Below, piece after piece: positions 8,092 through 62,082 of a DNA stretch of 62,715 nucleotides. Both the position numbers and the translations under genes were made by a program. Below the pieces are notes generated by a model. The model saw nothing but the letters and a program-made list of their open reading frames with translations. It made no database searches and was not told the origin of the DNA. This stretch comes from a virus. Within the stretch, counting starts at the first letter, position 1, and each line of letters starts with the position of its first letter. The stretch spans positions 1-62,715 of the IMG/VR virus record IMGVR_UViG_3300009146_000014; one strand, 5' to 3'.

Positions 8092-8140
8092 TGGCCTACA
8101 TATAGGCCATCGGGTTGAGGTTGGCAAGAGCCGCTTATCA
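8092..8140 (-). promoter_or_regulatory. Early promoter/operator element P4
   Basis: Fourth 49-bp element. In the minus strand: TGATAAG-CGGCT-CTTGCCA, then TATATG 17 bases after TTGCCA, inside TGGCCTATATGTAGGCCA. Its first three bases are the stop codon of the amidoligase gene. It drives 8072 to 6411 (GGCT-like enzyme, 91-aa protein, HTH, Flp pilin, 73-aa protein). Confidence 0.85.
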
Positions 8141-9196
8141 GAAAGCGTGCGTCTCGGGTTGGATGGCCGGGCGAGTCGGGGCCGGGTTGAGCAGCGTTGT
8201 ACGGGTGCGCATATAGTCGGCCTCATCAGGGGTTGAGCCAATGAGGTTGCAGAGGCCGGCGAGCGAGATATCCAAGGCCATGCTGGTCTGCATCGCGGCG
8301 CGGCGCACGTAGTAGCGAACCTCGCGGCCGGTACGCTGCGAATAGATATCCAGCTTGCAAGCCGCCGCCTTCTGCGGAATGGAAACGCTGGGCCAGTTGA
8401 AGGCGCGGCAAACCTCAGTGCGCGAGACGCCATTGGCGCTCAAGAGCATTTCGCCAATCTGCCAAGCCTTGCTGCCGCGCTTGGCGCGATTGACGATGGC
8501 CGGGGCAGTGTTGGCGATCGGCAGTTCGCGCGAGGCCGCGATGGCGATACGGAGGCAGGTAAGAATCCAGGTGCGCGCCTTCGTGTAATTGATCGTGCCG
8601 CTATGCTGGCGAAACTCGACGGTCTTGTAGGTGTTGTGAGCGACGATGTTGAGCTTGTGATAGCGGGCTTTGCTGGCGCCGGTTGCGCGCTTGATCGCAT
8701 CGGCGAGGTCGGCAACCGAGTAGGCCGCCTCGATGCTGGCCGCGCGGACGGAGGCGAGCGTGCGGCAGTAGGCGTTGACGGAGCCGCGACGGTTGGTCGG
8801 CATCATCTTGTCAATGATGGGCTCATAGGACTGATAAAGCCGGACCAACTTTTTGAAATAGCCGATCTGTTGCGGGCCGACGCCAACGTGCACATGCAGG
8901 CCGCACTTGTCCGAAACGGTGCAGCGGAATTGCGCGAGCATGCGGCAAACCGTGGCGACTTGAGCAAGCCCGGCATCGCCGCGCAGCACGGGCGAGACAA
9001 GCTCGATGCCGCGCGAATAGTCGCCGAGCGATCCGTCTGTTACGATGCGCCAATGCGAGGTAACGACGTGGCCGTAGGCGGCAACCGAGCAAGCGACGCC
9101 GGCATCAGAGATTGCGCGGGCGAGCGCATGACGGTCGCCACCTACGGGCAAGTAGCACTCAAACTCGACGCCGAAGGTGAAAACGTCAGGGGTCAT
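8138..9196 (-). CDS. Amidoligase-family enzyme with C-terminal GREVR module
   Basis: A 352-aa protein starting MTPDVFTFGVEFECYLP. FGVEFE is the conserved metal-binding strand of the glutamine-synthetase-like amidoligase family. Further family motifs are SDGSL-like ivTDGSLGDYSRGIELVSP (~50-68), CGLHVHVG (~98-105) and YKTVEFRQHSGT (~205-216). These enzymes form ATP-dependent amide bonds. After about residue 250 a WPSVSIPQ/GREVRYYV module follows that also occurs alone at 6411-6632. Promoter P5 lies 35 bases upstream. The GGCT-like partner follows immediately. Target unknown; modified peptide or small molecule. Confidence 0.85.
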   Translation of the reverse strand: MTPDVFTFGVEFECYLPVGGDRHALARAISDAGVACSVAAYGHVVTSHWRIVTDGSLGDYSRGIELVSPVLRGDAGLAQVATVCRMLAQFRCTVSDKCGLHVHVGVGPQQIGYFKKLVRLYQSYEPIIDKMMPTNRRGSVNAYCRTLASVRAASIEAAYSVADLADAIKRATGASKARYHKLNIVAHNTYKTVEFRQHSGTINYTKARTWILTCLRIAIAASRELPIANTAPAIVNRAKRGSKAWQIGEMLLSANGVSRTEVCRAFNWPSVSIPQKAAACKLDIYSQRTGREVRYYVRRAAMQTSMALDISLAGLCNLIGSTPDEADYMRTRTTLLNPAPTRPAIQPETHAF

Positions 9197-9230
9197 TTTT
9201 CTTGGTCCGGTGTTAGGCGTTTCGCGTTGG

Positions 9231-9279
9231 TGGTCTACATATAGGCCACGCGAACGGACATGGCAAGCCCGACTTATCA
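9231..9279 (-). promoter_or_regulatory. Early promoter/operator element P5
   Basis: Fifth copy, with one substitution in the palindrome (TGGTCTACATATAGGCCA on the plus strand). Spacing to the TGGCAAG-N5-CTTATCA dyad is again 30 bases. It sits in the divergent gap between the amidoligase gene and the rightward late region that begins at 9299, so repression here could also affect the late operon start. Confidence 0.8.
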
Positions 9280-9298
9280 AAAAAAATGAGGTATCCAA

Positions 9299-9961
9299 AT
9301 GGCCAGGAACAGGAAGCGAACCGCCAAGCCCGGCAAGGCGGCAGCCGACGAATCGCCGTTTGATCATCCGCGCGGGCCTCTGATCGGGGCGACGATGGCC
9401 GGTGTTGTGCTGATGCGCGACCCGGAGCGCGTGCGGCAGCTTGCGCGGGCCGGGTGGTTCCAATCGGAAGGCAGCCGCGCGGGGCACAAGGGCGCGGCGT
9501 ATCGATTGCTCGATATCGTGCACGGGTACATCCGTTTTCGCGATGATGAGGGCCGGCGCGGCACAAAGACGGCAGCCGCCTCGCGGATTGCGGAGGCTCG
9601 CTCGCGCGAGGTTGAGTTGCGCAACGCCTATCGCGAGGGGCACCTTATCGAATTGGAGGAGGCGCTTGAGACGGTTGAGGCTATTATGGGCGTGCTCCGA
9701 TTGAATTTGTCGGGGCTGCCGGCGCGCGTGACGCGCGACTTGCAACTGAGGCGGACAATAGAGACGGCCATAAATGACATCCTCGACTCGCTTGCGGATA
9801 TTGCCGCCGAGAAGTCAAAAGCTTTGGGAAAAGTTCGAGCTTCTAGCGCGCCCATCGCGGCCGATGACACCGGACAGGTGGGCGGCAGAGAATCGAACGC
9901 ATCCGCAAACGTCCGCAGTGCCAGGGCCACGCGACCCGCACTTGACCCCGTACATAATTGA
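9299..9961 (+). CDS. Terminase small subunit, probable
   Basis: A 220-aa basic protein. Its position directly before and overlapping the large subunit, together with a central run of helices (SRIAEARSREVELRNAYREGHLIELEEA), fits a DNA-recognition small terminase of the lambda Nu1 or DUF1441-like type, which characteristically has the AR..E.E....G.LI stretch. Role: bind the packaging site and load the large subunit. The ATG at 9299 is kept because an upstream ATG at 9286 is in another frame. The last ~60 residues are encoded in a region shared with the large-subunit start. Confidence 0.8.
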   Translation: MARNRKRTAKPGKAAADESPFDHPRGPLIGATMAGVVLMRDPERVRQLARAGWFQSEGSRAGHKGAAYRLLDIVHGYIRFRDDEGRRGTKTAAASRIAEARSREVELRNAYREGHLIELEEALETVEAIMGVLRLNLSGLPARVTRDLQLRRTIETAINDILDSLADIAAEKSKALGKVRASSAPIAADDTGQVGGRESNASANVRSARATRPALDPVHN

Positions 9962-17176: not shown

Positions 17177-17244
17177 GCGGGAAGTGAGAGAGCGGAGACG
17201 CGATGCGCTCCGCCAAAACCCCAGGCGAAAGAGGAGACGCGACC

Positions 17245-18807
17245 ATGCCCGTCAGTTTCTCAAACATTCCACAGAATTGGCGCCAGCCGCTTTATTGGGT
17301 GGAAGTGGACCCGAGCATGGCCGGCTATCCGCGCTCGCGTCTCACGTCGTTGCTAATCGGCACGATGCTGCCGAGCGGCACGGCGATTCCCGATGTGCCG
17401 ATTCCGGTGCCGAGCCAAGCCGACGCGCGAGTTCTCTTTGGTCTCGGGTCGATGCTTGACGGCATGGTCGAGAGCTTCACGGAAAACAATTTCGCGCAAG
17501 AGCTTTGGTGCTTGCCGATCGTGGAAGCCGTGGGCGTCAAGGCGTCGGGCGATTTGACGATCACAGCGCCAGCGGAGAAGGCCGGCACATTGCCGCTCTA
17601 TGTCGCCGGGCGTCGCGTGCAAATTTTCATCGAGGCCGGCGAGGGCGTGGAAGTCACGGCGGGCAAGATCGTGAAAGCGATCAATGACGACCCGTCTATG
17701 CCGGTGATTGCGTCGAGCGCTAGCACGGACAGTCCCGTGGCGTCGCTCGAATGCAAGTGGGCGGGCGTCGAGGGCAACGACATTGACGTTCGCCTCGCCT
17801 ACGGTGGATTGCTGGCCGCCGAGAAAGTTCCGTTCGGTCTGCAAATCACAGTGCCGGCCGGCAACAAGTTGGCCGGCGGCACGGGTACGGTGGACATCGA
17901 GCAAGGTCTTATCAATCTGGCCGACGAAATTTATGAATATGTCGCGACCGGGTTCACCGACTCGACGTGTCTTGCGCGGCTAGACCATGAGTATGGCTTT
18001 TCGGATGAGGGCCGGTGGGGATGGCTCCGCCAGCTTTACGGCCACATCTTTGGGGCGCGTCGCGGCGAGCCGATCAACGACCAGACCGGCTATAGCGATT
18101 TGCTGATGTACGGGCCGAACAACAATTCCGGCGTCATTTCGCTGATGGGCATCGAGGCCTATTCGCCGACGCCAACTTGGAATTGGGCGGCAGCGTATGC
18201 GGCCAAGGCGGCGCGTGCTCTGCTCAATGATCCGGCGAGGCCGTTGCAGACGCTTGCCATGGAAGGGTGCTTGCCGGCGCCGAAGCATCAACGCTTTACG
18301 ATCAAGCAATGCAACGACCTCTCGGGCGTCGGCATCGCAACGCAGAGGATCAACGCCAACGGAATCCCGGTGATCGCGCGAGAGTCGACGACGTACCAAA
18401 AGAACCTCTACGGGTTCGGTGATGACGCTTATGAATTGGTGCCGACGCTGGCGACGCTCGCCGCGTTGTTCCGTTCGCAGCGCCACGCCATCACGTCGAA
18501 GTTCCCGAGGCACAAGCTCGCCGATGACGGGACGCGGTTCGGTGCGGGGCAAGCCATCGTCACTCCCAAGATCATCAAAGCGGAGTTGGTGGCGCAGTAT
18601 CGGTTCGATGAATTTTTGGGGCGTGTCGAGAATGCGCAGGCATTCAAGGCGAACCTCATTGTCGAGCGTGATCCTCAAGACCCCAACCGAGTCAACGTGC
18701 TGTATCCGCCCGATCTGATCAACCAACTGCGAATCTTTGCGGTGCTGGCGCAGTTCCGTCTGCAATACAATCGCGGTGTGGATACGGAGATTGCTTCGCT
18801 CGTGTAG
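17245..18807 (+). CDS. Tail sheath protein, Mu gpL family
   Basis: A 520-aa protein. The start MPVSFSNIPQNWRQPLYWVEVDPSMAG matches the Mu-type sheath opening and decides 17245 (ribosome site GAGGAGAC) over an upstream in-frame ATG. Later marks are KLAGGTG, SEEGRWGWLRQLYGHIFGARRG-like DEGRWGW, and the C-terminal VLYPPDLINQLRIFAVLAQFRLQY. Sheath subunits wrap the tube and contract during injection. It proves this is a contractile-tail phage. Confidence 0.95.
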   Translation: MPVSFSNIPQNWRQPLYWVEVDPSMAGYPRSRLTSLLIGTMLPSGTAIPDVPIPVPSQADARVLFGLGSMLDGMVESFTENNFAQELWCLPIVEAVGVKASGDLTITAPAEKAGTLPLYVAGRRVQIFIEAGEGVEVTAGKIVKAINDDPSMPVIASSASTDSPVASLECKWAGVEGNDIDVRLAYGGLLAAEKVPFGLQITVPAGNKLAGGTGTVDIEQGLINLADEIYEYVATGFTDSTCLARLDHEYGFSDEGRWGWLRQLYGHIFGARRGEPINDQTGYSDLLMYGPNNNSGVISLMGIEAYSPTPTWNWAAAYAAKAARALLNDPARPLQTLAMEGCLPAPKHQRFTIKQCNDLSGVGIATQRINANGIPVIARESTTYQKNLYGFGDDAYELVPTLATLAALFRSQRHAITSKFPRHKLADDGTRFGAGQAIVTPKIIKAELVAQYRFDEFLGRVENAQAFKANLIVERDPQDPNRVNVLYPPDLINQLRIFAVLAQFRLQYNRGVDTEIASLV

Positions 18808-18898: not shown

Positions 18899-19393
18899 AT
18901 GTCCAGACTTGCACTCTGTCTCGTGCTCTCGGAAATCGGGGGTGGTCCCGACATCGACAACAGTTTGCCCGGCGGCGGTTATGGTCCGATCGATCCGGGG
19001 TTCGGCGTTGGTTGGGGCGGTGGCCGTCCCGACAATAGCTTGCCCGGTGCGCCCGGTCGTCCCGACAACAGTCTGCCGGGCCGTCCTCCGCATGTTGGTG
19101 GGCGTCCGCCAGGACAGGGCGTCACTCTCCCGTCGCATCCGATCTTTCGGCCGCCGGCCGGCACCAAGCCGCTGCCTCCGGGCGTGTCTCCCGGCGCCGG
19201 TCTTTGGGTGGTCGCGTACGTTCCCGGCAAGGGCTTCAATTGGGTTTCGGTGAGTCCCGGCGTGCCCGAGAAGCCGCAACCGACGCCTCCGGGCGGCACG
19301 GTGGACAACACGCTGCCGAGTGTGCCGGTTGACCCGGCCGCGCCAACGACGCCGGACAACACGTTGCCGCCAACCGCAACCCCGAAGGCGTAG
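18899..19393 (+). CDS. Pro/Gly-rich protein with DN(S/T)LPG repeats
   Basis: A 164-aa low-complexity protein. The motif D-N-(S/T)-L-P occurs at least five times (DIDNSLPGG, PDNSLPGA, PDNSLPGR, VDNTLPSV, PDNTLPPT), with a more ordered middle (GLWVVAYVPGKGFNWVSVSPG). TTGGAGGAAAAAC precedes the ATG at 18899. It lies between the sheath gene and a terminator, ahead of the sugar-enzyme island. It may be a virion surface protein and possibly the acceptor for the glycosyltransferases that follow; this is an inference. Confidence 0.7.
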   Translation: MSRLALCLVLSEIGGGPDIDNSLPGGGYGPIDPGFGVGWGGGRPDNSLPGAPGRPDNSLPGRPPHVGGRPPGQGVTLPSHPIFRPPAGTKPLPPGVSPGAGLWVVAYVPGKGFNWVSVSPGVPEKPQPTPPGGTVDNTLPSVPVDPAAPTTPDNTLPPTATPKA

Positions 19394-19426
19394 AAGCGCC
19401 GCGCGAACGATGTGGTGTTGTGATTG

Positions 19427-19457
19427 GGCGCGCGCTTTTTTCGGTGCGCGCCTTTTT
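19427..19457 (+). terminator. Intrinsic terminator after the DNSLP gene
   Basis: GGCGCGC (19427-19433) pairs with GCGCGCC (19446-19452) and is followed by five Ts. It separates the highly expressed head and sheath genes from the glycosyltransferase island and should lower expression of the latter. Confidence 0.75.
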
Positions 19458-19482: not shown

Positions 19483-20184
19483 ATGGATGCTTACGGAAAG
19501 ATCGGCAAACCATTTTGGAATGGGCGCCCGGTTGCGATCGTGGCCGGCGGACCGAGCTTGGTGGGGTTCGATTTGGAGCGGCTACGCGGCGCGCATGTGC
19601 TCGCGGTGAAGGGCTCGATATTTGATATCCCGTGGGCAGACGCCGGGTTCGGACTCGATATGCCTCGATATGCGGAGTGGCGTGACAAGCTCGCGAACGT
19701 ACCGACTCGAGTCTATTGGGCGGTGCCGCGCGACCAACTCGCAAAGACCGGACCTCCGCCATCGAAAAACATAACCTTTGTCGAGCGGTTGGATGGGGAG
19801 AACATATCCAGTGACCCAAGCAAGATTTATGGTGGCGGGACGAGCGGGTTTGGCGCGATGCAAATCTGCTTTCATAAACACGCCAAGTCGATCGTCCTCT
19901 TTGGGTTCGACTGCGATGGCGCCTACAAAGCGGACAGCGGATTCCGACACAACGACCAACACTATCAAAAGCGGCGCGCGCAAAACGAGGCCAATTGGGA
20001 AATATGGGCTCGGCACTTTGAGGTCTACGTTCCGTTTCTGAATGAGCACGGAATCACAGTCCTCAATGCGTGTCCGTCGTCGCGCATCACGTGCTTTCAA
20101 AAAGTCACGCTCGATGATGGCGTTCGCGCGCTTGGCATCGGCAAGAGCGAAGGGAGGCGCGCGGAGGCAACCGGCGGGCGGTAG
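19483..20184 (+). CDS. DUF115/MptE-like protein, putative sugar-transfer enzyme
   Basis: A 233-aa protein with a Rossmann-type opening (RPVAIVAGGPSLVGFD), where GGPSL is the nucleotide-binding turn of DUF115/MptE-like proteins. It continues with HVLAVKGSIFDIPWADAGFGLD and SGFGAMQICFHKHAKSIVLFGFDCDG, the family's second glycine-rich element. Relatives act on lipopolysaccharide, pseudaminic acid (Maf) or pterins. AGAGGCGGCGGG precedes the ATG. It is the first gene of a five-gene carbohydrate island. Confidence 0.75.
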   Translation: MDAYGKIGKPFWNGRPVAIVAGGPSLVGFDLERLRGAHVLAVKGSIFDIPWADAGFGLDMPRYAEWRDKLANVPTRVYWAVPRDQLAKTGPPPSKNITFVERLDGENISSDPSKIYGGGTSGFGAMQICFHKHAKSIVLFGFDCDGAYKADSGFRHNDQHYQKRRAQNEANWEIWARHFEVYVPFLNEHGITVLNACPSSRITCFQKVTLDDGVRALGIGKSEGRRAEATGGR

Positions 20185-20205
20185 CAGCAGAGGGAAGCGG
20201 GACAA

Positions 20206-20928
20206 ATGGAATGCGCAATCTTTCTCGGGTTCGACCCGCGTTCGGCGGAGTCACAAGGGTTTGCCGTGGCGCGGCATTCCATACAATCGCGGTTGAGCAA
20301 GCCGGCGCCGATCTTTGGGCTAGCTCTCTCTGAGTTGCGGGCCGGCGGGCTCTACAAGCGGCCGACGTACAAGCGGGGAAATCGACTATGGGACGGCGTG
20401 AGCGACGCCGGCATGAGTACCGAGTTCGCGATTAGCCGGTTTCTCGTGCCGTACATCGCCGCTCGCGGGCTCGCGCTATTCGCGGACGCTGATGTGATGG
20501 CGCGCGTAGACCTCATGCAGTTGTTCGAGTGCTACGAACCCGGCAAGGCGTGCATGGTCGTCAAGCACGACTATACGCCGAAGGGCGACACGAAAATGCA
20601 GGACCAAGCGCAAGCACCATACGCGCGCAAGAATTGGTCATCGGTGGTGCTCTGGAATTGCGATCATCCAAGCGCCAAGCGTTTAACGCCGGCAGTCGTG
20701 AACGAATCGACGGGCCTTTGGCTGCATCAATTCTCATGGCTCGATGACGACGAAATCGGCGAGCTTGACCCGTGTTGGAATCATCTTGTCGGCGAGCTTC
20801 CACCAAACCCCGATGCCAAGCTCGTGCACTTCACGGAAGGCACGCCGAATATGGACGGCTACGAGAATTGCGAGTTCGCGGACGAGTGGCGCAAAGAGCT
20901 TACGCGGTGGGCGGTGGGGCCGGTGTGA
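20206..20928 (+). CDS. Glycosyltransferase, GT8-like
   Basis: A 240-aa protein with a nucleotide-sugar transferase pattern: an N-terminal strand (AIFLGFDPRSAESQGFAVARHSI), then GLALFADADVMARVDL where DAD is the metal-binding DxD motif, and C-terminal WNHLVGE...KLVHFTEGTP, the HF..G loop of GT8-type enzymes. It probably transfers a sugar from a nucleotide donor to a phage or host target. The start is preceded by AGAGGGAAGCGGG. Confidence 0.8.
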   Translation: MECAIFLGFDPRSAESQGFAVARHSIQSRLSKPAPIFGLALSELRAGGLYKRPTYKRGNRLWDGVSDAGMSTEFAISRFLVPYIAARGLALFADADVMARVDLMQLFECYEPGKACMVVKHDYTPKGDTKMQDQAQAPYARKNWSSVVLWNCDHPSAKRLTPAVVNESTGLWLHQFSWLDDDEIGELDPCWNHLVGELPPNPDAKLVHFTEGTPNMDGYENCEFADEWRKELTRWAVGPV

Positions 20929-20965
20929 AATGTAGCGCCCGGCGCGACATTTGGAGGCCGCCAAA

Positions 20966-21949
20966 ATGAAGTTGCTAGTCGTAGGGCCGGACATTCAAGA
21001 CCTCCGCCGCGTAAAGAACTTTACGGGCGCACAGGCTTTCTACATCTGCCGCGAGTTGCGCAAGCGCGGCGTCGGCCTCGTGTTTGTTGACGGCAAGCAT
21101 CCGGACCCGTTGCGCTATCTGGCCGACGTTGACGGGCAAGGCTGTGACCACGTGCTCGCGCTCGGGCTCCGGTGGTTCACGCATCAGCCGATCGGGTGTG
21201 CCTCGATCCTCGCAACCAAAGTGCCGGGCAAGGTCACTCAACTGCATGACGGGCTAGTGCATGAGTGGCTCGCGCCACACATGAAAGGCGTGGATTGCAC
21301 GTTCATGTTTCGCGATGACGCCACGCGCGTCAAAGAGTGGTGGCGGTACTCCGCGACGAATCACTTTATCGGATGGGCGGCGGACCCCGAGATATTTTAC
21401 CCGGCGCAGAAGGCGAACGAATTGCGCATCTTGCTCGATCATCCCTACTACAAATCAGGCACGCCGGATTACACCGAGAGCGTCACGGCCGACGCGCTCA
21501 TGTTCTCTCATACGGGCATATGGAGTTCATATGCGCGGCCATGTGGCTTGCCATATGAGAGAGTTCGCATCCGCCGGCTTATCAACGGCGGCGCAGAGGA
21601 TGTGACGCTTAAAGACCCGTTGGTGCGGAAGTTCGATAGGCAGCACGTGCCGCTTGAGGATATCGCAAGGGAGTACCGAGCGGCGAGCGTCTACGTCGTC
21701 ACGCACAAAGAGTCGGTTGGCCTCACGTGCTTAGAGCTTGCGATGTGCGGAGCGTTGGTGGCCGCGCCGCGCGGGCTCATCTATCAGGACCGACTCGATA
21801 CGATTCGGCATGTGACTTACGATGGCGTGCGCGCGCCATGGGACACGATACTCGCCGAGATTGATGTGCTCGCGTCGGCCAAACTGGCGAAGGCGCAAAC
21901 GTGGTCGCGAGTAGTGGACAGGATGTTGGAATGGTTTGTGAGACAATAG
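20966..21949 (+). CDS. Glycosyltransferase, GT4-like
   Basis: A 327-aa protein starting MKLLVVGPDIQDLRRVKN, with the two-Rossmann arrangement of GT-B enzymes. The C-terminal half has the donor-site motif ...AASVYVVTHKESVGLTCLELAMCGALVAAPR (E.x7.E pattern, about 245-275). TTGGAGG precedes the ATG at 20966, which replaces a longer opening. Its end overlaps the next gene by 19 bases. Confidence 0.8.
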   Translation: MKLLVVGPDIQDLRRVKNFTGAQAFYICRELRKRGVGLVFVDGKHPDPLRYLADVDGQGCDHVLALGLRWFTHQPIGCASILATKVPGKVTQLHDGLVHEWLAPHMKGVDCTFMFRDDATRVKEWWRYSATNHFIGWAADPEIFYPAQKANELRILLDHPYYKSGTPDYTESVTADALMFSHTGIWSSYARPCGLPYERVRIRRLINGGAEDVTLKDPLVRKFDRQHVPLEDIAREYRAASVYVVTHKESVGLTCLELAMCGALVAAPRGLIYQDRLDTIRHVTYDGVRAPWDTILAEIDVLASAKLAKAQTWSRVVDRMLEWFVRQ

Positions 21950-22593
21950 TTGCGTGCGTTCGAACGGGGCAGCGCTATCCGTTTGAGTACGTCACGAAAT
22001 TGCAAGGCATGGTGCGCCGGCACTTGAGCAAGCCGCACGCCTTCTATTGCCTCACGGACCAACCGGAGCGATGCGAGGGCGCGACGTTCGTTGATATCAC
22101 GGCGCTCGGGCTTGAAGGATGGTGGGGCAAGCTCGCGCTATTCGAGCCGCAGTGGCGCGCGGACGCGACGGTGGTTTTTTTCGACCTCGATACCGTGTTG
22201 GTCGGAGACATCGCACCATTAGCGGATGTGCCGGGCGAGTTCGCTATTCTGGATAGTCCCGTACGGGCCGGCGGCAATGTGGCTTACCCGTGCCGCTACA
22301 ATTCCAGCGTCATGGTGATAGGCCGGGGCCGGGCCGGGTTCATCTGGACAAAGTTCGATAAGCGGCCGGATTACTACGTTGGCAGGCATCAACGCTACGG
22401 CGACCAAGCCGCGCTTGAGGAAATCGCGCCGCATGCCGCTAGCCTCAACAGGGCGATGCCTACAGGCTTTTTCCTCAATTACAGGCACCTAACCATGCAG
22501 CCGCCGGAACGGGCCTCAGTGGTCAATTTTGGAGGCTCTCACAAGCCGCACAATTGCCCGATTCCGTGGGTGCAGAAAGCGTGGACGGCGTGA
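21931..22593 (+). CDS. Glycosyltransferase, GT-A type
   Basis: A 220-aa protein. DATVVFFDLDTVLVGDIAPL carries a DLD metal-binding motif (about 76-78), and later YNSSVMVIGRG and SVVNFGGSHKPHNC resemble the acceptor and histidine loops of GT8/DUF-type transferases. The ATG at 21931 lies inside the previous gene; its TGA overlaps the GTG of the methyltransferase (GTGA). Tight coupling suggests an enzyme series acting in sequence. Confidence 0.8.
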   Translation: MVCETIVACVRTGQRYPFEYVTKLQGMVRRHLSKPHAFYCLTDQPERCEGATFVDITALGLEGWWGKLALFEPQWRADATVVFFDLDTVLVGDIAPLADVPGEFAILDSPVRAGGNVAYPCRYNSSVMVIGRGRAGFIWTKFDKRPDYYVGRHQRYGDQAALEEIAPHAASLNRAMPTGFFLNYRHLTMQPPERASVVNFGGSHKPHNCPIPWVQKAWTA

Positions 22594-23234
22594 CCGACCT
22601 ATTGATTGCCGGCGTGCGCGTGCGGATGGTCGCAACCGACGATCGCAATATGCTGCACATGGCAGAGGCGGACGGCTACGAGCCGGACAGTCTGGCGACG
22701 TGGGCAGGCATCGTGCGCGTGGGGCGCACGGCGGTCGATGTGGGCGCCTATACCGGGCTCTACTCGATCATTGCCGCGCTCAAGGGCGCGAACGTGGTCG
22801 CGCTGGAGCCGATGCCGGCACAATACTGGCGATTGGGAATCAATCTCGCGCTCAACAAGGCGCGCGCCAGAACGATTCAGGCGGCGGCGAGTGACGCAGA
22901 GGGCGAGGCGATTCTACATCACAACCCGAACGTCTCTCTCACAACCGGAGCTAGTTTGGTGCCCGGCAACGAGCATCACAGAGAGCACATAAAAATTCAG
23001 TGCATCACAATCGACTCTTTGGTGTTGACGGATGTGGCCGCGATGAAGATTGATGTCGAGAGACACGAACTCGCGGTGCTACGCGGGGCAATGCAAACGA
23101 TAGAGCGCTGCCGTCCGACGATGCTTATCGAGACACTCGATGCGGACATGCGATGTGCGGTAAGCCGGGCGCTGCCGAACTACGAGGCGGCGCACATTCT
23201 CGACAAGAGGAACACGCTTTTCATTCCGAAGTGA
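22590..23234 (+). CDS. FkbM-family methyltransferase (copy 1)
   Basis: A 214-aa protein (GTG start, coupled by GTGA). It has the SAM-binding motif AVDVGAYTGLYSI (about 46-58), an acidic second-strand end ALEPMPAQYW, and the FkbM-specific DVAAMKIDVERHELAVLRGA and PTMLIETLDAD. FkbM enzymes O-methylate sugar hydroxyls. In this island it probably caps a glycan made by the three upstream transferases. A clear paralogue is encoded at 61432-62082, including the same LD.RN..F C-terminus. Confidence 0.88.
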   Translation: MTDLLIAGVRVRMVATDDRNMLHMAEADGYEPDSLATWAGIVRVGRTAVDVGAYTGLYSIIAALKGANVVALEPMPAQYWRLGINLALNKARARTIQAAASDAEGEAILHHNPNVSLTTGASLVPGNEHHREHIKIQCITIDSLVLTDVAAMKIDVERHELAVLRGAMQTIERCRPTMLIETLDADMRCAVSRALPNYEAAHILDKRNTLFIPK

Positions 23235-23244
23235 GGGCGAGGCC

Positions 23245-23508
23245 ATGGCACGCAAATCGAAACATCATTCGTCGCGCGAGCAGCCGGCGCAAGCTGTCGT
23301 GCCGGAAAGGAAGGCGGGACCAGAAAAGACGATGGCCGACCCGAAGCCGGAGCCGGCCGAAATCGATCCAACCGACGCAACGCCGGAGCCGACGAACCCA
23401 AGGCCGCCAGATTATTGGCGTTGCGAGTGGTGCGGCCATATCAACGAGTTGAAGGCGACGGCGTGCGCTCAGTGCACGACAGCGAAGAGTCCGGTGCATC
23501 CGGAGTAA
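23245..23508 (+). CDS. Small RanBP2-like zinc-finger protein
   Basis: An 87-aa protein. The first 55 residues are charged and Pro-rich (likely disordered). The C-terminus contains WRCEWCGHINELKATACAQC, a four-cysteine W-x-C-x2-C-x10-C-x2-C finger of the RanBP2/NZF type. It lies between the sugar island and the tube gene. Such fingers bind RNA or protein. Role unknown. Confidence 0.7.
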   Translation: MARKSKHHSSREQPAQAVVPERKAGPEKTMADPKPEPAEIDPTDATPEPTNPRPPDYWRCEWCGHINELKATACAQCTTAKSPVHPE

Positions 23509-23520
23509 GAGGAGTCCAGC

Positions 23521-23886
23521 ATGCCACAGGGTCCGATTGCAGGAACCGCTTTCCTCAAAGTGGATGGCAATATGTATCCGCTGAAAGGGAATCTGACGGT
23601 CTCGGGTTCGCAGGTCGAGCGCAACGGTATCGCCGGCCAGGACTATGTGCACGGCTTCCAAGAGTTGCCGCGCGTGCCGTACATCGAGGGCGATGTTTCA
23701 ACCGATGCCTCGGTGTCAACGGAGTTCCTCGAAAGCATCGTCAACGCGACAATCACGGCGGAGCTTATCAACGGCCACGTGTACGTGCTCCGCAATGCGT
23801 GGACGAAAGGGCCAATCGAAATCAACACTCACGACGGACAATTTCGCATCCGGTTCGAGGGCGTTGATTGCGACGAAATCACGTAG
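23521..23886 (+). CDS. Tail tube protein, Mu gpM-like
   Basis: A 121-aa protein with the Mu gpM-type core: AGTAFLKVDGNMYPLKGNLTVSG near the start, then strand-rich repeats and DGQFRIRFEGVDCDE at the end. It forms the inner tube inside the sheath. Usually sheath and tube genes are adjacent; here six genes, 4.7 kb in all, lie between them, which indicates insertion of the sugar island. Confidence 0.88.
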   Translation: MPQGPIAGTAFLKVDGNMYPLKGNLTVSGSQVERNGIAGQDYVHGFQELPRVPYIEGDVSTDASVSTEFLESIVNATITAELINGHVYVLRNAWTKGPIEINTHDGQFRIRFEGVDCDEIT

Positions 23887-36564: not shown

Positions 36565-36924
36565 ATGAGCGTTGTCAACATCACAGTCCACAATGACGCG
36601 GACTTTTATTGCGTCTTTGACTATCAGTCGGTCGCGGGTGTTCCCATCGACATCAGCGGCTCATCAATGGTGATGATGCTCCGCCGGCACGCGAAGGACG
36701 AGGCGGCGCAACTGCGGCTCGGCACCGACACGGGCGAGATTGTCTATGTCGATCCGGTGCAAGGGCGATTCTCGGTTCGCATCGTGCAAGAGGTTTTGGA
36801 GCGGCTCGGGCTCGGCGACTTTGATCATTCGAACGTCATGAAAAAGGGCGACAGCAAGATTGCGATTTGGACGGGCACGTTCACAAACAATCCGGGCGCG
36901 GCGCGGGGGGACTTTCCGCTATGA
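36565..36924 (+). CDS. Small beta-rich structural protein, putative
   Basis: A 119-aa protein with an Ig/BppU-like beta pattern ([20 protein letters not shown], then [16 protein letters not shown] and [10 protein letters not shown]). Its stop overlaps the start of the collagen-like fibre gene (ATGA), so the two are probably made together and may form one appendage. Confidence 0.6.
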
Positions 36925-38588
36925 ACAGCGTCACAGTCAGCAACGGGCCGTCAACGACAGCCGGCGAGGGGATGACGCCGGTTGTTGTTGTCGCGCACGA
37001 CATGCTGGAGACGATCATTGTTGGCCAGCAAGGGCCGCCGGGACCACAGGGGCCGCCCGGTCCGCCGTCTGCGGTGCCCGGCCCGGAAGGGCCGCCGGGC
37101 AATTCGATTATTTACGGCACGTCTCCGCCGAATAGCTCTGTCGGCGAGGATGGCGACAGCTACATCAACAAGACGACGAATCTTTTCTACGGCCCGAAGG
37201 CGAATAATGTTTGGCCGGCCGGCGTGTCGATGGTGGGGCCGCAAGGTCCGCAGGGCGCGCAAGGTGCACAAGGGCCGAAGGGTGATGCGGGCGCGCAAGG
37301 TGCGCCGGGCGCGCAAGGTCCGGCGGGGCCGCAAGGTCCGCAAGGCTTGCCGGGCGCACAGGGCGCACAGGGCAATGTGGGACCGCAAGGGCCGCCCGGC
37401 CCAACCGGCGCGGACTCGACGGTGCCCGGCCCGGCCGGGCCGGCGGGCGCAACCGGCGCGCAAGGGCCGCCCGGCCCAACCGGCGCGGACTCAACGGTGC
37501 CGGGGCCTCCGGGCGCAACCGGCGCGCAAGGGCCGAAGGGTGACAAGGGCGACACGGGCGCGGCATCAACGGTGCCGGGGCCTCCGGGCGCAACCGGCGC
37601 GCAAGGTCCGGCCGGCGCGCAAGGTCCGCAAGGCATCCAAGGTCCGGCCGGGCCGGCGGCGGGTTCGCTCATTCCGCAGGGCCGGCTAACGCTCAACACG
37701 GCGACGCCAATCATGCTGGCGTCATACGCGAACGTGGGCGCGATAATTTACACGCCGCACAACGGCCTCTATCTGCCGCTGTTCGATGGCTCGACTTTGG
37801 TTGCGGCCAATGTGGGCGGCGAACTTGGGCAGCTACATGCCGACACTTCCAAGAGTCCGGCCGCAGCGGTGGCCAACAAGACTTACGATGCGTTCGCTTG
37901 GCAGGACGGCGGAGCGGTGACGCTTTCGCGCGGCTGGCCTTGGCAGTCGGACACATCGCGCGGAGTCGGCGCCGGCACATCCGAGTTGATTCGCAGGGGC
38001 GGGATATACGTCAACAAGTACGCCATCACGAACGGGCCGGCGGCGGAGCGCGGGACATATCTCGGGAGCTTCCGCACGAACTCACTCGGGCTTAGCGATC
38101 ACATCATAAACACGTACGGCACGCCGGTTGCGGCGAATCACTTGGGCGTGTGGAACAAGTACAACCGCGAGCCTCTGACGACTTGGTTGCATGACACGGG
38201 CGCCGACTATCAATCGACTCCGGGCAGCACGTGGCTCATGCATTGCCTACACGCCGGCACGCGATGGAATTTCTTGCGCGGGCTCGATGAACATCAAATG
38301 GTGTTTCGCATGGCCGTTCGCGGCAATGGCCCGGCGGGGCATTATCAGCAGTTCGGATTCCTGTTGGATGCAGCGGCGGGGGCGCCGGGACTAGCAGGGC
38401 AGAATTGGCTGTCACAGGTTGGGGTGCTGCAAGTCGCGTCGAGCGTCTATGATATTTCGGTGGAGGCGTCGGCGGTGCTTACGACCGCGCTCGGTTGGCA
38501 CTATACGCAGGCGATGGAATGGGTTTCGACGCCATCGACTATCAAGCGAGCGCAATACCACATGCTTACGTGTCAGACGATGTACTAG
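36921..38588 (+). CDS. Collagen-like tail fibre
   Basis: A 555-aa protein. Residues ~35-55 and ~110-250 are Gly-x-y repeats ([22 protein letters not shown] and so on), which form a collagen-type triple helix. A globular C-terminal domain (~260-555) starting [20 protein letters not shown] probably trimerises and binds the host. The repetitive DNA (37020-37670) is prone to recombination and could vary fibre length. Confidence 0.88.
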
Positions 38589-49849: not shown

Positions 49850-49891
49850 GGCCGCGACCCCCGTCGAAGGGAGTCGCGGCCTCTTTTTTTT
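49850..49891 (+). terminator. Strong intrinsic terminator
   Basis: GGCCGCGAC (49850-49858) pairs with GTCGCGGCC (49873-49881), followed by TC and eight Ts. It ends the two-gene rightward unit and meets the end of the leftward reductase gene, whose stop codon overlaps the T-run. Confidence 0.92.
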
Positions 49892-51602
49892 ACGCGGCGC
49901 TCACAGCGGCGCATCCGCCTTCGTCGCAATCGATCAAAGGGGTTCCCGAGTTATCGTCGGTTTTTTGCAAGAGCGCGCCGCGCTTGCCTCCGACTTGGAA
50001 CGTCGCGCAAGATTTGCATCCGCGTTCGAAGGCGTCGAAGTAGAGCGCTTGGAAGTCTCGCCACGCCATATCACTCGGGACGTTGGCTGTCTTAGAAACA
50101 GCCGAGTCAGTGTGCTTTTGAGCGCAGGCCAATACAGAAATATGCTCTTGAGCAGAAATTTCTGAAGCCTCGCGCGGAGATACGCCAAGCACTGCGAACC
50201 CGTAGTCTTGGACATCATAGGTCGTTGGTCCCGATGGCATTTGCACGACGCGCTTGCCCGACACTGCAAACACGGGCTCGATGCCGCTACTGATGTTGTC
50301 GTGCACGAACGAAATCGTGCCGGTCGGCGCAATGCTTATCAGATGCGAGTTGCGGACGCCATGTTCGGCGATGGCCGCTTGCACGTCGGCGCGTAGCGTG
50401 CGGATGAACGGTTGTGAGTGATACGCTTGCGTGATGGCCGGGGCCGCGCCTTTCTCTTTCGCGAGCATGGCCGATGCGTGGTAGGCCGCATTCTTGAGAA
50501 CGCCGAGCGTTTCATCGAGCAACTCAATAAAGCCTTCCGTGCCGTACGGGTGGCCGCACGCTTCAAGCGCGTTCGCGGTGCCCATGACGCCGAGACCCAT
50601 CCGGCGAGTCGCAATCGCTTGCTGCCGTTGCTCGGGCAGCGGGTAGGACGCAACATCGGTCACGTTGTCCATGCCGCGCACGACGCCGGGCACATCGTCG
50701 GCAAGCATGTCGAGGTCGAGCCGCCATTTCTTGCCGGGTCCGGCGGGCTGCAAATACTTGGTGAGGTTGAACGAACCGAGCAAGCACGCGCCGAACGGAG
50801 GAAGCGGTTGCTCGCTACATGGGTTCGTGGCGGCAATCGTCTCGCAATAGTTGAGGTTGTTCCACTCGTTGACTCGATCGATGAAGATCACGCCGGGCTC
50901 TGCCCAATCCCATGCGCTCCGCATGATTTGCTCCCATAGAGCGGCGGCATCAATCTCTCGATAAGGCTTGCCTTCGAACCGCAGTGTAAAGGGTCGGCCG
51001 TGCTTGACCGCGTGCATAAACTCGTCGGTGATGGCGATCGACAGATTGAACGTGTTGAGCCGGTCGGAATTTTGCTTGGCGTGTATAAATTCCTCGATGT
51101 CCGGATGATCCACGCGCAAGACGCCCATCATCGCGCCTCGCCGTTCGCCAGACGATGAAATCGTGTCGGCCATCGCGTGATAAACATTCATGTAAGAGCA
51201 CGGGCCAGACGCACGCGAGTCGAGCGAGCGAACCTTGTCATTGCGCGGTCGGATGGTGGAAAAGTCGTAGCCGATGCCGCCGCCACGCCGAAGAGTCTCG
51301 GCGGCTTGCGCGAGGCGGTCCATGATTGAGCCGGGGCCATTGAGCGAGTCTTCGATGGGGCCGGACACGAAACAGTTATAGGGAGTGGTTCGCTTGGTGG
51401 TGCCGAGACCGGCGAGGATGCGGCCGGCGGGCGAGAATCGGCCGTCGAGCATGATGGAACGAAAGGCTCGATAGTGCTTGTCGTCATCGGCGAGCATCGC
51501 GGCGACGCGATTGCAGACATCGCGCTTTGTCTCGTTGCGTTGCGCATACTTGAATTGGAAAACGGCGGCGGCTGCCGGAGTCAGTGGTCCGTGCTTGTCC
51601 AT
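49890..51602 (-). CDS. nrdJ: Adenosylcobalamin-dependent (class II) ribonucleotide reductase
   Basis: A 570-aa enzyme. Marks: RFSPAGRILAGLGT, YNCFVSGPIEDS (Cys77, redox partner), RRGGGIGYDFS, SGERRGAMMGVL, the radical loop ATNPCSEQPLPP (Cys262, Glu264), and ISIAPTGTISFVHDNISSGIEP. The C-terminus ends CDEGGC, the thiol shuttle. It makes deoxyribonucleotides without oxygen using host B12. No dATP-binding cone is visible at the N-terminus, so feedback control seems reduced, useful for a phage. Own promoter in the 51603-51703 gap. Confidence 0.95.
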   Translation of the reverse strand: MDKHGPLTPAAAAVFQFKYAQRNETKRDVCNRVAAMLADDDKHYRAFRSIMLDGRFSPAGRILAGLGTTKRTTPYNCFVSGPIEDSLNGPGSIMDRLAQAAETLRRGGGIGYDFSTIRPRNDKVRSLDSRASGPCSYMNVYHAMADTISSSGERRGAMMGVLRVDHPDIEEFIHAKQNSDRLNTFNLSIAITDEFMHAVKHGRPFTLRFEGKPYREIDAAALWEQIMRSAWDWAEPGVIFIDRVNEWNNLNYCETIAATNPCSEQPLPPFGACLLGSFNLTKYLQPAGPGKKWRLDLDMLADDVPGVVRGMDNVTDVASYPLPEQRQQAIATRRMGLGVMGTANALEACGHPYGTEGFIELLDETLGVLKNAAYHASAMLAKEKGAAPAITQAYHSQPFIRTLRADVQAAIAEHGVRNSHLISIAPTGTISFVHDNISSGIEPVFAVSGKRVVQMPSGPTTYDVQDYGFAVLGVSPREASEISAQEHISVLACAQKHTDSAVSKTANVPSDMAWRDFQALYFDAFERGCKSCATFQVGGKRGALLQKTDDNSGTPLIDCDEGGCAAVSAA

Positions 51603-61008: not shown

Positions 61009-61265
61009 TGCCCGAGAGGATGCGTGATCCGAGTCCCATGCACTATGCATCGGGCTATACGCTTGACCTCTACTGCGATCACATAAACCCGAGACATCCG
61101 TTCAACGCTTTTCCTCACACGTTTGTCGGGGAGACGTTCGCAGAATGCGCAAGGCAGGCAAGGGCAAAGGGTTGGGACGTACATCATCGAGACCGCACGG
61201 CAACTTGCCCGATCTGTTTGAGCGAGAGCCGGCAGGCACGCCTAAAGCGTGCGGGACGTGTGTAG
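61008..61265 (+). CDS. Hypothetical CxxC protein, 85 aa
   Basis: An 85-aa protein: LDLYCDHINPRHPFNAFPHTFVGETFAECARQARAKGW (in parts) and CPICLSE at the end. The GETFAECARQARAKGW helix is common in small phage zinc proteins that end in CPxC. TAATG overlap with the upstream stop. Confidence 0.65.
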   Translation: MPERMRDPSPMHYASGYTLDLYCDHINPRHPFNAFPHTFVGETFAECARQARAKGWDVHHRDRTATCPICLSESRQARLKRAGRV

Positions 61266-61423
61266 TGCGCAACGCGCAAAGCGAGCAACAAGAGCACGGC
61301 AATTGCTCGCGCTTGGGCATGAGGCACAAGAATGCGCCGGCATGTCGCGAATGGTTCGGCTTAGAGCAGTTGAGGCAACCGCTCTATGGACGCAAAAGTT
61401 CGGTACGTCCGAAACTGACGTAG
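61145..61423 (+). CDS. Small cysteine-rich protein, overlapping frame
   Basis: A 92-aa protein overlapping the previous gene by 121 bases. Cysteines CGTC, C and C (KACGTCVVRNAQSEQQEHGN, then CSRLGMRHKNAPACREW) resemble a small zinc protein, and it ends eight bases before the methyltransferase start, as an operon gene would. No good ribosome site for the first ATG. Confidence 0.45.
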   Translation: MRKAGKGKGLGRTSSRPHGNLPDLFEREPAGTPKACGTCVVRNAQSEQQEHGNCSRLGMRHKNAPACREWFGLEQLRQPLYGRKSSVRPKLT

Positions 61424-61431
61424 GGGCAAAG

Positions 61432-62082
61432 ATGCGCATCATGGTAGGCGGCGAGCGAGTGCATCTGACAGACCAGAGCGATTCCATCGTGCGCATCATA
61501 TCCAACGGCAAGCGGTGGGAGCCAGAGACGCGCGCCGCATGGGCGTCGCTTGTGATGCAGGGTGCCGGGGGCATGGTGTTGGACGTGGGCGCCTATACGG
61601 GCGTGTATGCGATAGCCGCCGCGTTGATGGGTGCAAAGGTGATGGCTCTTGAACCTCATCCGGAGAACTTCGCGCGCTTGCTGGTGAACATCGCGCTCAA
61701 CCGCGTAGAGGTCGAGGCGAGGCAGGTTGCAGCATCGAGCGCACAAGGCGCACGCTTCCTCTACACCAAAGGGCGACGCCTCAATGACACGGCATCGCTT
61801 GAGCGCGACGATGTATTGAAAGACAAGGTGGAAGTGCAGGCCATGCGCATTGACGACATGGCGCTATTGGCGCGCGTGGGTCTGATCAAGATCGACGTGG
61901 AACATCATGAGGTCGATGTGCTCTTAGGGGCACAGTACACTCTCAAAGAGTGTAAGCCCGTGGTCGTGGTCGAAACGCTCGATGCGCTCGCCTTCGATAC
62001 CGTGGCACAATACATGCGCGGCATCGGCTATGCCCTACGGGGCACGCTCGACGCACGCAACAAGGTGTTTGAGTGTGAGTGA
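61432..62082 (+). CDS. FkbM-family methyltransferase (copy 2)
   Basis: A 216-aa protein paralogous to 22590-23234. Motif I MVLDVGAYTGVYAIAAAL, ALEPHPENFARL, then LIKIDVEHHEVDVLLGAQ and VVVVETLDALAF, and the same LDARNKVFE end. Start at 61432 with TAGGGG upstream; longer frames overlap other genes. It is not next to glycosyltransferases here, so it may modify a different sugar or the same glycan at another time. Confidence 0.87.
   Translation: MRIMVGGERVHLTDQSDSIVRIISNGKRWEPETRAAWASLVMQGAGGMVLDVGAYTGVYAIAAALMGAKVMALEPHPENFARLLVNIALNRVEVEARQVAASSAQGARFLYTKGRRLNDTASLERDDVLKDKVEVQAMRIDDMALLARVGLIKIDVEHHEVDVLLGAQYTLKECKPVVVVETLDALAFDTVAQYMRGIGYALRGTLDARNKVFECE

Follow-up and report, generated by a model that had tools for sequence, protein, structure and literature searches.

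Glycosylation of virion proteins is documented for few phages, and to our knowledge no glycosylated contractile tail sheath has been described. In the mycobacteriophages Che8, Corndog and Myrna, phage-encoded glycosyltransferases are reported to decorate the capsid and the tail tube (Freeman et al. 2023, cited in PMC12363180). Here, we analyzed an island of five genes, A to E, that lies between the tail sheath and tail tube genes of an uncultured virus record, IMG/VR record IMGVR_UViG_3300009146_000014 (the window, that is, the whole stretch of 62,715 bases), which is a soil phage with kinship to Bradyrhizobium prophages. We consider it fairly probable that the island serves late O-glycosylation of a virion protein with a methylated sugar, with a loop of the sheath as the best acceptor candidate. 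The presence of this Ser/Thr-rich loop tracks the island, which suggests a contractile tail that the phage itself coats with sugar.

As in the mycobacteriophages, glycosyltransferases are encoded by the phage itself, with decoration of structural proteins reported there and predicted from genes here. The locus differs in its Mu-like contractile tail, its Maf/GT42-like core enzyme, its several transferases joined by an FkbM methyltransferase, and the sheath as candidate acceptor. A system of this kind is already known from the mycobacteriophages; a contractile sheath as target and a Maf-like core enzyme would be new. Also close are the Maf flagellin glycosyltransferases, whose activity is cytosolic protein O-glycosylation, the GT42 enzymes CstII and Cst-I, and the phages P1 (pmgO, pmgP, ppp and pmgQ, with dbn) and P7 (the hdm operon). 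P1 and P7 each hold members of the A, D and C families within one phage; they differ in carrying them at two separate sites outside the sheath–tube slot, and no B or FkbM gene was seen there.

Gene content and conservation of the sheath–tube slot

Pfam and PHROG matches give the window the gene order terminase, portal, protease, capsid, sheath, tube, tape measure, baseplate and fibre. The region from sheath to tube reads as follows:

17203..18807, plus strand: tail sheath gene; likely start ATG 17245; phrog_165 (E-value 4e-148), PF04984/PF17482
17707..17754, plus strand: Ser/Thr-rich sheath loop IASSASTDSPVASLEC; 16 residues, 155-170 counted from ATG 17245
18899..19393, plus strand: Pro-rich DN[ST]LP repeat protein, 164 amino acids; no family match; an optional neighbour
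19426..19453, plus strand: intrinsic terminator, an 11-base-pair stem followed by TTTTCATT; just upstream of A
19483..20184, plus strand: A, DUF115/MptE-like protein with a GT42/Maf-type fold, 233 amino acids; phrog_4603 (E-value 8e-21)
20206..20928, plus strand: B, GT8-like glycosyltransferase with a DxD motif (DAD); phrog_28018
20966..21949, plus strand: C, GT-B glycosyltransferase with an EX7E motif; phrog_2518 (E-value 5e-35)
21931..22593, plus strand: D, GT8-like glycosyltransferase with a DxD motif (DLD); phrog_1962 (E-value 6e-23)
22590..23234, plus strand: E, FkbM methyltransferase; PF05050 (E-value 8e-18); start GTG 22590 (likely) or TTG 22554
23245..23508, plus strand: small open reading frame (ORF) of the RanBP-type zinc-ribbon kind, 87 amino acids; PF00641 (E-value 4e-5, below cut-off)
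23521..23886, plus strand: tail tube gene; PF10618 (E-value 9e-34)

The start of D lies inside C (a 19-nucleotide overlap) and, as read from the sequence, GTG 22590 of E sits on the TGA of D as GTGA. The G+C fraction of the island stretch (~0.60-0.63) is the same as in the remainder of the window, so the island is unlikely to be a recent foreign insert. These coordinates, together with the Pfam and PHROG matches, bear out the original prediction for this DNA that the sheath and tube genes are split by a terminator, a DUF115-like protein, glycosyltransferases and an FkbM methyltransferase with partly overlapping starts. Its count of three glycosyltransferases of different folds beside the DUF115-like protein needs revision: B as well as D is a GT8-like GT-A enzyme and C is GT-B, and as A itself has a GT42/Maf-type fold, the island would hold four transferases of three folds. 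Its description of the two structural genes as normally adjacent fits the Mu/SfV-like phages phiNP and Paraburkholderia phage IPK, but not the window's own clade.

A scan with the sheath as query yielded 62 relatives, and 40 clade intervals were complete from sheath to tube, one from the window and 39 from relatives that include near-copies. A occupies the slot in 40/40, on its own in 14, with D in 19 and as A-B-C-D-E in seven; we call the last arrangement full and those with fewer genes reduced. Within these 40 intervals, B-C-E were seen solely in the full set, whose order is constant, and on the sheath tree the full/reduced state changed at least three times (starred branches).

Two distant relatives (L061 and L064; 55% sheath identity) lack A, with other ORFs filling the slot. 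The L061 ORF (11624-12376, 250 amino acids) resembles, by eye, a GIY-YIG-type homing endonuclease and suggests that the sheath–tube junction is an insertion-prone site. In L064, the slot (1859-2341) holds an ORF of 106 amino acids and, after it, a short repeat of the C-terminal end of the sheath with 84% identity to residues 507-531 (the query has 534 residues), a vestige of an insertion or duplication. A scan of genome contigs with the A alignment found one host genome only, that of Bradyrhizobium sp. BRP22; the relative on its contig (locus L073) has the whole island and no Pro-rich gene, and it keeps the gene order between terminase and the first baseplate genes, two of the latter being swapped. 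Given this relative, a temperate lifestyle is likely. Elsewhere in the window, the ORF listed for an amidoligase (8138-9745, minus strand; PF12224, E-value 3e-30) shares bases with the terminase small subunit, which places the true start later than listed.

Predicted enzymes and their homologues in other phages

A structure model of A made with 36 relatives has a predicted local distance difference test score (pLDDT) of 88.5, and the sole Foldseek matches with an E-value <0.001 were Maf glycosyltransferase 5mu5 and CstII. In VIA-align comparisons, the model was superimposed on the central domain of Maf (chain 259-517) with Z 14.3 over 200 residues at 11% identity, and on an archaeal MptE-type pyrophosphokinase, CstII and Cst-I with Z 11.1, 10.9 and 10.4, respectively. 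The central Maf domain matched by A is pfam01973 (PMC11339370). A differs from Maf in being phage-borne and a single domain of 233 amino acids in place of the three-domain Maf architecture, and in scoring 20.8 bits against PF01973, under the curated cut-off of 34.6. Its GPS and SG motifs align with those of CstII and Cst-I at 14-15% identity. Because the MptE-type pyrophosphokinase also reaches a Z of 11.1, the fold alone does not settle the activity of A; the phage context and the PHROG name (alpha-2,3-sialyltransferase) favour its prediction as a transferase. No significant match emerged from sequence-profile searches of the PDB with any of A, B, C and D.

The loop that follows the FGFD strand of A has the motif N[DE]xHY in each of 12 full islands and in none of 33 reduced ones. 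This HY loop is limited to full islands, and the sequence alignment of A to CstII ends before it. In L043, the sister of a full clade, A is followed directly by D and the His-loop motif is degenerate. On the A tree, just one independent full/reduced contrast is well supported.

In full islands, the remaining proteins carry intact family motifs. A Glyco_transf_8 match was found in 7/12 members of the B family (best E-value 5e-9), in which the DxD residues D94/D96 are invariant; the structure model of B was poor, with a pLDDT of 46.8. C is a homologue of P1 Dbn and P7 Glt, with 30% identity to Dbn over the full length, and its invariant EX7E motif (E249/E257) is common to Dbn. D is a homologue of P1 PmgQ (26% identity) and P7 HdmD, and its DxD motif is present in all readable full-island copies and eroded in about half of the reduced islands; in L010 (12175-12832), D is broken across two reading frames. 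E scores 65.6 bits against PF05050, above the curated cut-off of 22.7, and its D-x-GAYTG motif for S-adenosylmethionine is invariant. The window has another FkbM methyltransferase (61249-62082, plus strand), far from its tail genes and with 36% identity to E. In full islands, the ratio of nonsynonymous to synonymous substitution rates (dN/dS) of all five genes is mostly 0.1-0.3, which indicates purifying selection, and D is looser in reduced islands (0.25-0.44).

Phage glycosyltransferases are thus found here with intact motifs and among virion genes, a statement about location only. Searches with defence-system models gave just a weak methyltransferase match (E-value 6e-6). Some temperate phages carry glycosyltransferases that modify the host surface, and with a temperate lifestyle likely for this clade, the island might act on the O-antigen or capsule of the host, so that superinfection is blocked or a receptor altered. 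We give this very little credence: A-E contain no membrane segment (maximum hydropathy 1.6) and no membrane flippase/glucosyltransferase of the gtr-type serotype-conversion cassettes, the island holds no flippase or lipid-carrier enzyme, and its place is in the tail block, not beside lysogeny genes, with an association with a sheath loop.

Island-gene homologues from P1, PAJU2, phages of Caulobacter and uncultured phages are for the most part, with exceptions, neighbours of head or tail genes. The A, C and D families co-occur in P1 (pmgO, dbn, pmgQ) and in P7, whose operon carries the annotation head morphogenesis. In PAJU2, an A-type gene sits in the head-tail connector block, flanked by the head-closure and tail-terminator genes. 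Further A-type genes are placed between head and head-closure genes (S20), between tail and lysis genes (CcrColossus and Domovoi) and before the terminase (phiNP). The islands of CcrColossus, PAJU2 and S20 are alike in pairing an A-type protein with transferases and/or a methyltransferase in or beside virion genes, and differ in insertion point and partner genes. A B homologue follows the capsid gene in ctDrO704, and across 24 uncultured contigs with B homologues the commonest neighbour matches were major head and portal proteins, a count made with no formal baseline.

Glycosyltransferases of phages often modify DNA, and it is conceivable that these enzymes glycosylate a modified base before packaging. 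The related clusters of Mosig, XacN1 and RAS14 adjoin ribonucleotide reductase genes, and the window has a reductase of its own (large subunit at 49890-51602, minus strand, in a phage of this size) as well as a Dam-like methylase. This explanation is highly improbable, as the island lies in a late structural position, the fold of A is nearest to a protein glycosyltransferase, and no thymidylate-synthase-like (PF00303) or C5-methylase (PF00145) match was found in the record, which may be incomplete, with positive controls. A search of the record for TET/JBP dioxygenases gave no match, with the control likewise silent.

The sheath loop as candidate acceptor

Virion proteins were compared between full and reduced phages, and the sheath stood out in a region picked after looking. 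In 9/9 distinct full sheaths, residues 155-170 form a 16-residue, Ser/Thr-rich loop, and in 24/26 reduced sheaths the same place holds 13-14 residues rich in Ala, Gly and Val, with the long loop in the other two. For this post hoc region, the Fisher p of loop length against island state is 8e-7, and simulated independent traits matched equally well in ~0.01-0.17% of draws on a tree built without the loop. The sheath association is concentrated near residues 136-161. In addition, the following out-of-sample islands fitted the pattern: L082 (with the variant NGRHY), L087 and L173 (a contig that ends after B) carry B and the HY loop, and all have 16-residue sheath loops, and the new reduced island L176 has a short one. 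L181, with A and B and no HY, has a long loop. The sheath of the window is related to the solved sheath 9khy (E-value 7e-83), and in Mu the variable domain III of the sheath extends outward (PMC11915804). On these sequence comparisons, the loop is the best candidate for a putative acceptor.

The more specific proposal, that the sheath is an O-glycoprotein and the phage counterpart of flagellin glycosylation, modified by a Maf-like enzyme, three transferases and FkbM, with loop and enzymes gained and lost together, is put forward tentatively. It is unlikely, and worth weighing all the same, that the acceptor is another virion protein (the Pro-rich repeat protein, a collagen-like fibre, the tube or the capsid) and the sheath loop merely a linked marker. 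In mycobacteriophages, the known acceptors are capsid and tail tube (PMC12363180), and head genes dominate around B homologues in other phages. In the clade itself, though, no tube position tells full and reduced phages apart by Ser/Thr, and Ser/Thr columns of capsid, decoration protein and tube gave no convincing signal among few full sequences (five for the columns of the major capsid protein). A further possible acceptor is the collagen-like tail fibre with Gly-X-Y runs at 36867-38588 (plus strand) of the window.

The Pro-rich protein had been singled out by the original prediction as the glycan target. Its homologues lie directly 3' of the sheath gene in about half of the loci and are found in most full islands, and they form a fast-changing family without a Pfam or PHROG family whose repeat units read PDQGLP, DN[ST]LP, PEHPI or PSHPI. 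The DNS/TLP unit does not form an N-X-S/T sequon. As a conserved acceptor, this protein was rejected on two grounds: the gene is absent from the full islands L005, L059 and L073, and the relatives have PDQGLP, PEHPIV or PSHPIA as their repeat unit, with Ser, Thr and Asn not conserved. The repeat protein is dispensable, and the sheath is the better candidate. What is supported of the earlier claim is a late, soluble, multi-enzyme island for glycan assembly and methylation, for which decoration of a virion protein is the best reading.

Proposed pathway and its meaning

From the gene content, folds, motifs, position and purifying selection, and from the association of the A loop and the sheath loop with B-C-E, we infer the occurrence of glycosylation and a pathway, with its enzyme activities, the chemistry of the glycan, the acceptor, the sequence of the reactions, the timing of expression and the benefit, as follows. 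A (Maf/GT42-like), B and D (GT8-like) and C (GT-B) would assemble a short glycan in the cytosol from nucleotide sugars of the host, and E would O-methylate one of its sugars. The acceptor would be a virion protein made simultaneously, for which the sheath loop at 155-170, encoded immediately upstream, is the best candidate, and the benefit may be shielding or stability of the tail. The terminator before A probably limits the enzymes to a lower level than the structural sheath. Strong terminator hairpins occur within 110 nucleotides upstream of A in 14/38 distinct loci compared to 8/760 random stretches, and therefore the terminator of the window is a recurrent feature; these hairpins are GC-rich, often with the arm GGCGCGC, and lie inside the late-gene block. 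The probable effect of the terminator is to keep the abundant sheath message apart from that of the enzymes. The search for sigma-70 promoters gave no match, and expression of the tube gene beyond the terminator may depend on read-through, antitermination or a promoter of its own.

Several points weigh against this pathway. The virion glycan is deduced here from genes alone, and the related clusters of Mosig, XacN1 and RAS14 are not next to virion genes. The loop association is post hoc, so its true p is larger, and there are just three well-supported (starred) independent contrasts between loop and island, all in the expected direction. The out-of-sample L179, with A, B and E and no HY, has a short loop and is a counterexample, and L008 and L047 are reduced islands with a long loop. 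The outward-facing position of the loop, on domain III, is predicted from the description of the Mu domain and the 9khy alignment. The GT42 catalytic His can be placed on A at best tentatively; the His region is not conserved across the A family. A is kept under purifying selection without B-E and without the His loop, which means that A must have some role beyond this pathway. P1 pmgO, pmgQ and dbn are non-essential, with knockdowns that still form plaques (PMC10695390), and any benefit is therefore conditional.

The retention of A bears on one further explanation, in which A is a sheath/tube assembly factor, not a transferase, in reduced phages, perhaps generally, and the slot is permissive, with B-E as optional cargo. 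The 14/40 intervals with A alone, the other ORFs in the slot of L061 and L064, and the annotation of the P1 and P7 homologues as morphogenetic are in its favour. However, A is missing between the sheath and tube genes of Mu-like relatives whose sheaths are similar, P1 pmgO is dispensable, and the motif in the A loop goes with B-C-E, as does the sheath loop, which makes this explanation improbable.

The analysis links the long-unexplained P1 set of pmgO, pmgQ and dbn to enzymes encoded next to head and tail genes across many unrelated phages, and makes a specific sheath peptide and a full/reduced genetic contrast available for testing. If true, late O-glycosylation of a virion protein would account for a common class of unexplained phage genes.

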